From positions 1 to 64,000 of the IMG/VR virus record IMGVR_UViG_3300021961_011210: a stretch of 64,000 nt of DNA. One strand, 5' to 3'. The stretch comes from a virus. Of this stretch, positions 2,848 through 25,738 are shown piece by piece. How positions within the stretch are numbered: the stretch's first letter is position 1; each line of letters starts with the position of its first letter. The notes beneath the pieces are model-generated. The model saw nothing but the letters and a program-made list of their open reading frames with translations. It was not told the origin of the DNA and did no database searches. A program made the position numbers and the translations under genes.

Positions 2848-3672
2848 TTATTTGAGTAAGTTGTAATATTCTTTAAAATGTTTGATTCTATCTGCCAAAC
2901 CAATAGTTCCTCCGTTGACTCTTTTTGTTACGGTTGTTACGGTAGCATCATCCGCACCTCTATCAGCAATGGAATTTAACCCATTTTTAGAGAAGAACCA
3001 AGCTGCAGATGCTAATGGATACTTTGTTGCCACCAAATCAGGATTTCCAACAGTATCTTCATTAATTGCCTTAGCGAATGCTGTGTAGTTATCTTTTCCT
3101 GTTAATTGGATGTAACCACGACCTCTGAATTTATAACCTTCTTTAGTTTCTTCACCACCATTACCCATTCTTCCACCATACACTTTAGATGCAATTTTTT
3201 CAGGGTTTCTTGCGTAAGATTCTGCTAGATTTCCAGGAAAATATTTTGGGAATATTCTTTTTAATCCGTCTACTGAATAGTTAAGATTTTCTTGGACTGC
3301 CTTGAACCCTCCGGACTCATGTCCGCATTGTGCTAAGAAATGTGCCAATCTTAATGGTGTGTTTATTGCAAATTTCTCCATAACTGTGGGAATTTGTGCG
3401 ATTACAACATCAGGTACATGTCCCTTTAGTTTTTCTAAGGATATTGGACCACCTGTGGGGATAACAACGTCTTCTTTAAGTGTCGAAGATGCTAAACCCA
3501 TTTTTGCCCAAGTGGCGTCTCCTACTATACCGTCAGCGGTAAGTCCATTTTTGGATTGCCATTCTTTGACTGCTTTTTCCGTACCGGATCCGAATATTCC
3601 ATCGGCGCCCAATCCGAGCTTTTGTTGAAGTTTTTTAACATCTTCACCTTTAGAGCCATTTTTAAGTAACAT
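2848..3672 (-). CDS. Endolysin: peptidoglycan-binding domain plus GH19 lysozyme
   Basis: 274 aa. Residues 1-60 form a PG_binding_1 domain (GSKGEDVKKLQQKLG ... GIFGSGTEKAVKEWQ ... DGIVGDATW). Residues 75-274 form a glycoside hydrolase 19 domain with the catalytic Glu119 in HFLAQCGHESGGF and the family motif KFRGRGYIQLTG. It would cleave the glycan strands of peptidoglycan at the end of infection. There is no signal peptide, so a holin or another export route is needed; none is evident next to it. A TATTTAT element lies 32 nt upstream and a strong terminator follows. Confidence 0.92.
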   Translation of the reverse strand: MLLKNGSKGEDVKKLQQKLGLGADGIFGSGTEKAVKEWQSKNGLTADGIVGDATWAKMGLASSTLKEDVVIPTGGPISLEKLKGHVPDVVIAQIPTVMEKFAINTPLRLAHFLAQCGHESGGFKAVQENLNYSVDGLKRIFPKYFPGNLAESYARNPEKIASKVYGGRMGNGGEETKEGYKFRGRGYIQLTGKDNYTAFAKAINEDTVGNPDLVATKYPLASAAWFFSKNGLNSIADRGADDATVTTVTKRVNGGTIGLADRIKHFKEYYNLLK

Positions 3673-22544: not shown

Positions 22545-22573
22545 TAATAAAAAAGGGGATTATTCATCCCCTT
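22545..22573 (-). terminator. Terminator of clpC
   Basis: On the - strand the 8-bp stem AAGGGGAT/ATCCCCTT (5-nt loop) overlaps the clpC stop codon and is followed by a T tract. Confidence 0.8.
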
Positions 22574-24581
22574 CAATTAAAACCACTTTTTTATCTACAA
22601 AATCCAAAGTGTATGGAGTTTCGGGTATTATATTTTTTTTCAAAACTTCTTCTGAAATGAAATCTTCAATTTTTTCTTGTATTGCTCGTTTGATTGGACG
22701 AGCTCCGAACTTATCGTCAAAACCCTCTTTACCTATCATTGTTTTTACACTGTCAGTAACGAAAATTTCGTATTTCATTTCCTTGAGACGTTGTACCAAT
22801 TTATTGATTTCAATATCAACAATTTGAGTGATTTCATTTTCCTTGAGGGAGTTAAATACTACTACGTCGTCGATACGGTTTAAAAACTCCGGAGTGAAAT
22901 AATTTTTGAGTTCTTTTTGCAGAAGTCTATTACGTGTTTCGTCTTTGTCATTTTCTTTAGCCACTGTATCGAACCCTACTCCAGTCCCAAAGTCCTGTAG
23001 TTTTTTGACTCCCAAGTTAGATGTCATGATAACCAAAGTATTTTTGAAGTTAATCTTCCTTCCCATACTGTCGGTTAAGTGCCCATCGTCCAAAACTTGA
23101 AGTAGAAGTGAGAAGATATCACGGTTTGCCTTTTCAATTTCATCAAAAAGCACTACTGAATACGGTTTGTTTTTTACCGCCTCGGTGAGTTGTCCGCCTT
23201 CTCCGTGTCCGATGTATCCGGGAGGTGAACCAATCAAACGACTCATTGAGTGTTTTTCTTGATACTCAGACATATCTACACGAATGAGTGCGTTTTCATC
23301 TCCGAAAATTTCCTTTGCAAGTTGTTTTGCTAAGTGTGTTTTACCAACACCGGTAGAACCTAAGAAAACAAATGAACCAATTGGACGATTTGGATCTTTG
23401 ATACCTACACGGTTTCGTCGGATAGACTTAGAAATTTTACTAACAGCCTCCTGTTGTCCAATGACTTTTTTGTTTAGATTGGTTTCCAAGTTAAGTAAGG
23501 ATTCACTTTCATCAACGGTTAGTTTAGTTAAAGGGATTTTAGTCATCGAAGAAACTACTTCGTAAACGTGGTCTTCTGTAACCAAACTACGGTTGGTATT
23601 TGAATCCTCCTCGAACTTACGTTTTTCATCTTCGAGCTTTTTCAAAATTTTCTTTTCTTTATCACGAAGTTGAGCAGCCTCTTCATATTTTTGGCGTTTA
23701 ACCACCAACAATTTTTCTTCTTTGATGTTGAGAGCTTCTTGTTTCAATTTTTCGATAATTTCAGGTAACTTCATGTTAACCTGACTACGAGCACCGACTT
23801 CATCCATGATGTCAATCGCTTTATCGGGAAATCCACGATCAGTAATATAACGATCCGCCAATGTTACACAGAGTTTAAGAGACTCATCACTATATAGAAC
23901 TTTGTGATGGGATTCATATTTGTCTTTGATTTGTAAAAGAATTTCGAAGGTTTCTTCAGGTGTAGTTTGATCTACAAAGACTTTTTGGAATCGACGTTCT
24001 AATGCACCATCTTTTTCAATATGTTCACGGTATTCGTCCAAAGTAGTGGCACCAACACATTGGAGTTCACCTCGTGCAAGTGCGGGTTTGAATATGTTTG
24101 ATGCATCTAATGAACCTGATGAGTTACCTGCTCCAATTATGGTGTGAATTTCATCAATAAACACAATAATGTCACGATTTTCTTGTAGTTCATCCAAAAT
24201 AACTTTCAAACGTTCTTCAAATTGTCCACGGTATTTTGTACCTGCCACGATTGATGTCATATCCAAAGATACGATACGTTTATCTGCAAGATTTTGAGGA
24301 CAGTCCCCTTGGAATATTTTCATTGCTAGCCCTTCAATGATGGCGGTTTTTCCTGAACCAGGTTCTCCAATAATGATTGGGTTATTTTTTTTCCGACGAG
24401 ATAGGATTTGTGCTATTCGGTTGATTTCTTGCTCCCTACCTATGACGGGGTCCAATTTTCCTTGTTCTGCTAATCTAATCAAGTCTCTTGAAAAATTATC
24501 CAAAACAGGTGTTGAGGAATTTATAGTTTCCGAACGATTCTTACGAGAACCTTTTTCGTTGGGATCTGCCGATTCAATCAT
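22560..24581 (-). CDS. clpC: ClpC-type AAA+ unfoldase lacking the N-domain
   Basis: 673 aa from the ATG at 24581 ([11 protein letters not shown]); the longer upstream frame is not used because a TACCTTTG promoter lies inside it. Two AAA+ modules are complete: Walker A GEPGSGKT (72-79) and GSTGVGKT (408-415), Walker B FIDEIH (141-146) and LFDEIE (478-483). A UVR motif ([13 protein letters not shown], 299-311) lies in the linker, marking ClpC rather than ClpB. The loop TGVGF (533-537) may be the ClpP-binding loop. The N-terminal Clp_N domain, normally about 150 aa, is missing. It would unfold proteins for host ClpP. Divergent from hsp20 across two operators. Confidence 0.9.
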
Positions 24582-24600
24582 GTTTCTAATATTTGTTTTA

Positions 24601-24608
24601 CAAAGGTA
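24601..24608 (-). promoter_or_regulatory. Host-type -7 element TACCTTTG of clpC
   Basis: Matches TAnnTTTG and ends 19 nt before the ATG at 24581. The inverted repeat at 24636 lies about 28 nt further upstream. Confidence 0.6.
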
Positions 24609-24635
24609 ATAAAAATTATGTAACAAACAACTATT

Positions 24636-24648
24636 TGACAAACTGTCA
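24636..24648. promoter_or_regulatory. Inverted repeat TGACA-N3-TGTCA (operator 1)
   Basis: A perfect 5-bp inverted repeat with a 3-nt spacer, near the clpC promoter. Its centre is 42 bp (four helical turns) from the centre of the second copy. Confidence 0.65.
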
Positions 24649-24673
24649 TACTTTTTTATATTTTGGAAATTCC

Positions 24674-24694
24674 TATATGACAAAATGTCATATA
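24674..24694. promoter_or_regulatory. Inverted repeat TATATGACA-N3-TGTCATATA (operator 2)
   Basis: A perfect 9-bp inverted repeat with the same TGACA-N3-TGTCA core as operator 1. It ends 23 nt before the -7 element of hsp20, so a bound dimer would cover its -33 region. Confidence 0.7.
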
Positions 24695-24717
24695 TAATCA
24701 AATAATTTGTTTTGGCA

Positions 24718-24725
24718 TATTTTTG
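24718..24725 (+). promoter_or_regulatory. Host-type -7 element TATTTTTG of hsp20
   Basis: Matches TAnnTTTG; the ATG follows 41 nt downstream, giving a real A-rich leader. Confidence 0.55.
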
Positions 24726-24766
24726 GCAAATATAGGGAAAAATAAACATTAAAAAAAAATTAAGTT

Positions 24767-25489: not shown

Positions 25490-25738
25490 ATGGCAGTAAA
25501 AAACGAAAAAATCGAAGGAACCAAAATCATCAATGAAATCGAGTCGTCAAATATCAAAAAAACTGTTTATGACACGTCTAATAAATCATTGATAGCGACA
25601 TTCAATAATGGTGCAGAGTACGAATACGAGAATGTACCTCATCAAATTTACACAAAGTTTAGAATTGCAGAATCCCAAGGAAAGTTTTTCAACACCGAAA
25701 TCTCAAAAAAATACAAATACAAAAAAATAGAAAAGTAA
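25490..25738 (+). CDS. KTSC-domain protein
   Basis: 82 aa. The whole protein fits the KTSC domain: SSNIKKTVYDTSNKSLIATF, NGAEYEYENVP, then AESQGKFFNTEISKKY. The domain is common in phages and next to Lys-tRNA synthetases; nucleic-acid binding has been proposed but its function is not established. It shares an operon with the helical 102-aa protein. Confidence 0.8.
   Translation: MAVKNEKIEGTKIINEIESSNIKKTVYDTSNKSLIATFNNGAEYEYENVPHQIYTKFRIAESQGKFFNTEISKKYKYKKIEK

Follow-up and report, generated by a model that had tools for sequence, protein, structure and literature searches.

The virus from which this DNA comes appears to infect Bacteroidota and to drive its small heat-shock gene, hsp20, with a copy of the host heat-shock switch. 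We put at roughly four in five the probability that the region upstream of hsp20 is a phage copy of a Bacteroidota heat-shock promoter, at which a host activator of the bEBP type and sigma-54 would drive hsp20. More broadly, and with somewhat less assurance, sequence comparison suggests that Bacteroidota mount their heat-shock response via sigma-54 and a bEBP of the miaB-lptE family, devoid of a sensory domain, acting at phased enhancers, and that diverse phages have repeatedly placed Hsp20, UVR, DnaK and GroEL genes under this control.

The clp-hsp20 region and its relatives

The window, by which we mean the whole stretch of 64,000 nucleotides analysed, makes up most of a 72,885-base IMG/VR virus record in which the phage hallmark genes for terminase, portal and major head proteins are present. 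As the preliminary description of this DNA had it, an unfoldase gene and a small heat-shock gene are divergently placed, here with 185 bp between them (Table 1). The Clp protein has two AAA+ domains, lacks the N-domain and scores below the NCBIfam cut-offs for ClpB and ClpA; by eye, the middle region shows a motif of UVR type, and a VGF loop can also be recognized. The clp ORF stays open up to an ATG at 24749, and the palindromes discussed below are read as intergenic because the clp matches of relatives begin at the position that corresponds to the 24581 ATG.

Two inverted repeats with the same TGACA-N3-TGTCA core lie between the genes, their centres 42 bp or four helical turns apart, exactly as had been described. 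What had been called an 18-bp perfect arm pair is indeed a perfect pairing of 18 bases, with arms of 9 bp each. The palindromes are beyond chance: the window holds two against 0.11 expected, none of 100 dinucleotide shuffles of the window yielded two, and the whole record contains no others. Overlooked in the preliminary description was the adjacent sigma-54 -24/-12 element, TTGGCATATTTTTGGCA, which has GG at -24 and GC at -12 with 10 bp between, the arrangement (GC or G- at -12) by which we recognized sigma-54 promoters. This element is 21 bp from palindrome 2 and 63 bp from palindrome 1, that is, two and six turns. As upstream dyads in helical phase with the -24 box, the arrangement looked for in bEBP sites, the palindromes are most plausibly upstream activating (enhancer) sites for an hsp20 sigma-54 promoter, and the earlier suggestion that their spacing suits a dimeric regulator is upheld. 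Transcription of hsp20 would be expected to start near 24739, about 28 bases 5' of its ATG; the palindromes lie 57-100 bp from this predicted start, near for classical enhancers.

The clp gene appears to have a vegetative-type promoter of its own, with a match to the -7 consensus TAnnTTTG (PMC9723704), and similar boxes occupy the same position in many relatives. The palindromes had been described as operators between divergent clp and hsp20 promoters; of this reading the hsp20 side survives, with enhancer sites in place of a generic operator, and control of clp by the palindromes is at most possible.

Table 1. Features of the divergent clp-hsp20 region, in window positions
Feature	Position	Strand	Basis
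clp unfoldase gene, ClpC-like	22560..24581	-	Pfam AAA_2, ClpB_D2-small, AAA_lid_9
clp promoter of the Bacteroidota vegetative type, TTTG ... TACCTTTG	24601..24627	-	TACCTTTG at 24601-24608; -7 TAnnTTTG consensus
Palindrome 1, TGACAAACTGTCA, putative distal enhancer site	24636..24648	.	motif match
Palindrome 2, TATATGACA-AAA-TGTCATATA, putative proximal enhancer site	24674..24694	.	core TGACAAAATGTCA at 24678-24690
Putative sigma-54 -24/-12 element of hsp20, TTGGCATATTTTTGGCA	24712..24728	+	GG-N10-GC; kept in relatives
hsp20, small heat-shock protein, 122 aa	24767..25135	+	PF00011, E=9e-15

The element is conserved with the partner gene of clp. Among 80 viral clp loci sampled, 52 scanned members, the window counted in, have a divergent gene for Hsp20 (14) or for a small UVR-motif protein (38), and a palindrome with at most one mismatch is found in 50 of these 52, compared with 2 of the 19 loci where clp has other neighbours (KTSC and others); the p value of this contrast, 3e-12, is nominal, the loci being related. 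We scored 36 distinct loci in which GG(C/T)A, the part of the box used for selection, follows the palindrome; the other positions and the distance were left free. The box continues with Y in 36, R in 32, T at -14 in 36 and G at -12 in 23. Distances from palindrome to box fall at about 11, 22, 33, 42 or 53 bp, which amounts to between one and five turns of the helix (at a period of 10.5 bp Rayleigh R is 0.93, with related loci taken as independent). Where palindromes occur in pairs, their spacing is 30-32 or 42-43 bp, corresponding to three or four turns. Two loci, L042 and L054, retain one or more palindromes upstream of clp with no Hsp20/UVR partner. In both, KTSC or a KTSC-like gene is divergent from clp, and the palindrome is not followed by a sigma-54 box. 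Either the partner was lost recently or the palindromes serve clp, a role that these loci thereby make possible.

When IMG/VR was scanned with the hsp20 protein, a single close relative was found. A wider phage regulon was not apparent: most of the other exact palindromes in phage genomes fall within ORFs, and none is accompanied by a phased box. The box TATCTTTG, present near the divergent gene in many phages, was weighed as a part of that gene's promoter and rejected, since its distance from TTGGCA ranges from 8 to 33 bp and many loci lack it. In most relatives Hsp20 is replaced beside Clp by a small protein with a double UVR motif (L002-L020 and other clp loci, e.g. L010:4351-4827), possibly a Clp adaptor. 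KTSC genes are the commonest clp neighbour among relatives without the palindrome, and the window has a KTSC-domain gene of its own at 25490-25738, two genes past hsp20.

The element in Bacteroidota and in other viruses

The preliminary description had raised the idea that the phage captured a host stress operator and had proposed a motif search of Bacteroidota genomes. A broader search bears the idea out, and the repeats prove to be conserved in related phages and hosts alike. Genomes representing 84,980 species of bacteria and archaea were scanned blind for the palindrome followed, after 9-35 bp, by TTGGYAYRNNNNTTG. Bacteroidota names stand on 78 of the 80 loci among the matches listed. The downstream host genes were identified by recognizable N-termini, and, among the matches listed, 70 of 76 readable ORFs encode chaperones or proteases: dnaK (47), htpG (8), groES (7), clpB (3), lon (3) and hsp20 (2). 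The same element thus stands before host chaperone genes, as it should in a sigma-54 heat-shock regulon, and the gaps between host palindrome and box, again among the matches listed, cluster at 10-12, 20-23 and 32-34 bp.

Since the blind scan selected for the motif, and since the exact composite of palindrome and box occurs in 6 of 148 sampled Bacteroidota genomes, we also took a motif-free sample consisting of the dnaK promoters of 30 genomes from a phylum-wide set, each encoding a close match to the candidate activator described below. A sigma-54 box with at most one mismatch is present in all 30 promoters, and a palindrome with at most one mismatch lies within 75 bp upstream in 19, against 0.06 expected from shuffles; the gaps are 11, 21-22, 42-43 and 53-54 bp. 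The rarity of exact composites indicates that sites in hosts generally deviate from the motif by one or two bases, the phage sites being good matches. All 148 genomes, a sample that spans the phylum, encode rpoN (PF04552). Where the genome has only a distant version of the activator, the box precedes dnaK in 1-2 of 13 cases; with dnaK mostly boxless in such genomes, the circuit is not uniform across the phylum.

Many other viruses appear, from the composites they carry, to drive chaperone genes by the same element. When viral contigs were scanned for the palindrome plus box, at least 82 matches were obtained, of which 41 precede dnaK (16), Hsp20 (14), a UVR protein (10) or groEL (1); several Hsp20 and one DnaK are confirmed by Pfam and the others were assigned by likeness. 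Among the matches listed, all 41 chaperone-linked composites are helically phased (R=0.96), compared with 12 of the 41 remaining, about the chance share (R=0.08). In the listed dnaK contigs (L324, L325, L339, L340, L352, L358, L361, L362, L367, L368, L370, L379, L384, L389, L395 and L397) and the groEL contig (L371) the gene lies directly behind a phased palindrome and sigma-54 box, dnaK encoding a protein of about 620-630 aa. The viral groEL is taken as phage DNA because its neighbours encode a glucosyltransferase and a DNA polymerase of phage type; the dnaK contigs are assigned to phages less firmly, from their IMG/VR classification and from small neighbouring ORFs that resemble the ones in the clp phages. 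The glucosyltransferase (L371:875-2248) is of the beta-glucosyl-HMC kind (phrog_842), and the DNA of that phage possibly contains modified bases. Elsewhere a phage protein of about 597 aa is encoded behind a phased composite (N=12; L387:4856-6652 and L388:2326-4119); the L388 copy has no match in Pfam or PHROGs, and the protein is possibly a non-chaperone member of the phased set.

The candidate activator and competing explanations

The likely activator of the palindromes is a bEBP of about 420 aa encoded between miaB and lptE, which we name as the candidate on the basis of elimination and linkage to groESL. PF00158 proteins are encoded in 41 of the 44 genomes with the composite. Nine genomes have exactly one, and in each of the eight from which it was retrieved it is a member of the miaB-lptE family, as is the sole PF00158 member with both GAFTGA and an HTH in each of two small flavobacterial genomes; this elimination was made partly from draft genomes. 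The protein matches PF00158 and PF02954, with the AAA+ domain at its extreme N-terminus, no sensory domain, and a C-terminal Fis-type HTH that bears a near-invariant IS(E/D)RTLYRK helix. GAFTGA or a close variant is found in nearly all family members, in L236 with a one-residue insertion. The gene follows miaB in flavobacteria; after it come lptE, a further ORF and secG, and in several genomes these lead on to groES-groEL. A published table for F. psychrophilum likewise has this regulator together with lptE, at a distance of four locus tags from groESL (PMC9723704). Upstream of groES in L228 there is a palindrome and box 32 bp apart, and in L230 a palindrome lies 61 bp 5' of the miaB start. 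The family was detected in 71 of 148 genomes at E<=1e-130, a threshold that missed members; a looser search found it in 16 of 17 genomes checked, including ones initially missed. In the flavobacterial genomes L203, L205, L237 and L239 a PF00158 protein of about 388 aa is conserved beside the true bEBP; it has a receiver-like N-terminal start, no GAFTGA match and no usual HTH at its end, and is probably not a sigma-54 activator.

It is conceivable, if unlikely, that the sigma-54 enhancer layout is as proposed and that the palindromes are bound by some other activator, be it a second bEBP of the host or a protein of the phage. Many hosts encode 2-11 PF00158 proteins, and binding by the miaB-lptE bEBP is itself only predicted. 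This possibility is nonetheless opposed by the genomes with a single PF00158 protein, by the two small flavobacterial genomes and by the linkage of the bEBP gene to groESL; moreover, the window proteins scanned, a subset of the phage genes, include no sigma-54 activator.

Less probable again is a dimeric repressor of host or phage origin, resembling HrcA, HspR or CtsR, that would occupy the palindromes and silence clp and hsp20 until stress. Dyad symmetry, a location between two stress genes, the position of palindrome 1 just upstream of the clp -33 region and the palindromes retained in L042 and L054 could all be accommodated by such a protein. The sites are, however, upstream of the -24/-12 box and not over it, a simple repressor has no need of whole-turn spacing over up to five turns, and a sigma-54-type box requires an activator. 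CIRCE (TTAGCACTC-N9-GAGTGCTAA, bound by HrcA), HAIR (CTTGAGT-N7-ACTCAAG, bound by HspR) and the sites of CtsR are inverted or direct repeats that serve as repressor sites on the housekeeping promoters of chaperone genes. The phage element shares with them the use of repeats for chaperone genes, but its sequence differs and its architecture suggests activation. Neither the CIRCE nor the HAIR consensus was found on reading 24582-24766, and identity with either is excluded, in agreement with the preliminary description.

We consider it very unlikely that TATTTTTG (24718-24725) serves hsp20 as a vegetative promoter and that the TTGGCA box is fortuitous. In the window the -12 region is TTTTTGGCA, which deviates from TTGC, and the TAnnTTTG match overlaps the box. 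Relatives, however, keep a TTGG(C/T)A(C/T) box and lose this TAnnTTTG match, for which reason such a promoter was dismissed, and it would leave the phasing of palindrome and box meaningless. Chance repeats in AT-rich intergenic DNA, although the motif is short and single exact matches occur in a few phage genomes, mostly inside ORFs, have a negligible probability given two sites for 0.11 expected, their conservation with the partner gene and their helical phasing.

Proposed mechanism and relation to known systems

In the mechanism that we propose for a host-driven sigma-54 promoter, dimers of the host bEBP would bind the two TGACA-N3-TGTCA sites, form an AAA+ ring on the DNA face that also carries the -24/-12 element, and so enable sigma-54 RNA polymerase to use the opened promoter. 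Because it has no N-terminal sensory domain, the bEBP is probably held inactive by a partner protein, perhaps a chaperone (compare PspF-PspA), so that phage hsp20 would come on as unfolded protein is sensed by the host. The divergent clp gene would be read from its own vegetative-type promoter. The phage Hsp20, UVR, DnaK or GroEL protein may then aid folding during infection and, if this is true, phage chaperones would be made in step with host folding stress. Chaperone genes of several unrelated kinds would in this way have been put by phages under a stress enhancer of the host, and when phage chaperones are made becomes a matter for experiment.

PspF, of the phage shock response, is a bEBP without an N-terminal regulatory domain that works from paired upstream sites on a sigma-54 promoter. 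The candidate bEBP also lacks such a domain and would likewise act from paired sites on sigma-54 promoters, with chaperone genes as its targets; it is not PspF, since it scores 271.7 bits with NCBIfam TIGR02974, far below the cut-off of 443.55. The partnership of a small UVR-motif protein with a Clp unfoldase is familiar from McsA-ClpC of Firmicutes, and in most relatives of the phage locus a gene for a UVR-motif protein likewise sits beside that for the Clp unfoldase. Similarity of the phage UVR protein to McsA is confined to the UVR motif (E=1e-6) and is below the NCBIfam cut-off.

Sigma-54 control of Bacteroidota chaperones has already been published (PMC9723704, PMC12316311). In F. psychrophilum, sigma-54-type (SM4) starts precede groESL, lon, dnaK, grpE-dnaJ, htpG and clpB (PMC9723704) and a Bacteroidota sigma-54 chaperone regulon has been predicted (PMC12316311), with -24/-12 elements placed as here; unlike the present work, the available parts of these two papers describe no enhancer sequence, phasing, activator or phage copies. 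Our literature search found the enhancer, its phasing, the activator assignment and the phage use undescribed, preprints and most subscription papers being outside its coverage and absence therefore unproven. The phage element may thus supply an enhancer sequence, together with one candidate activator, for the sigma-54 chaperone promoters of Bacteroidota. Elsewhere in the window, positions 2848-3672 encode a peptidoglycan-binding domain and a GH19 chitinase-type domain, probably an endolysin.
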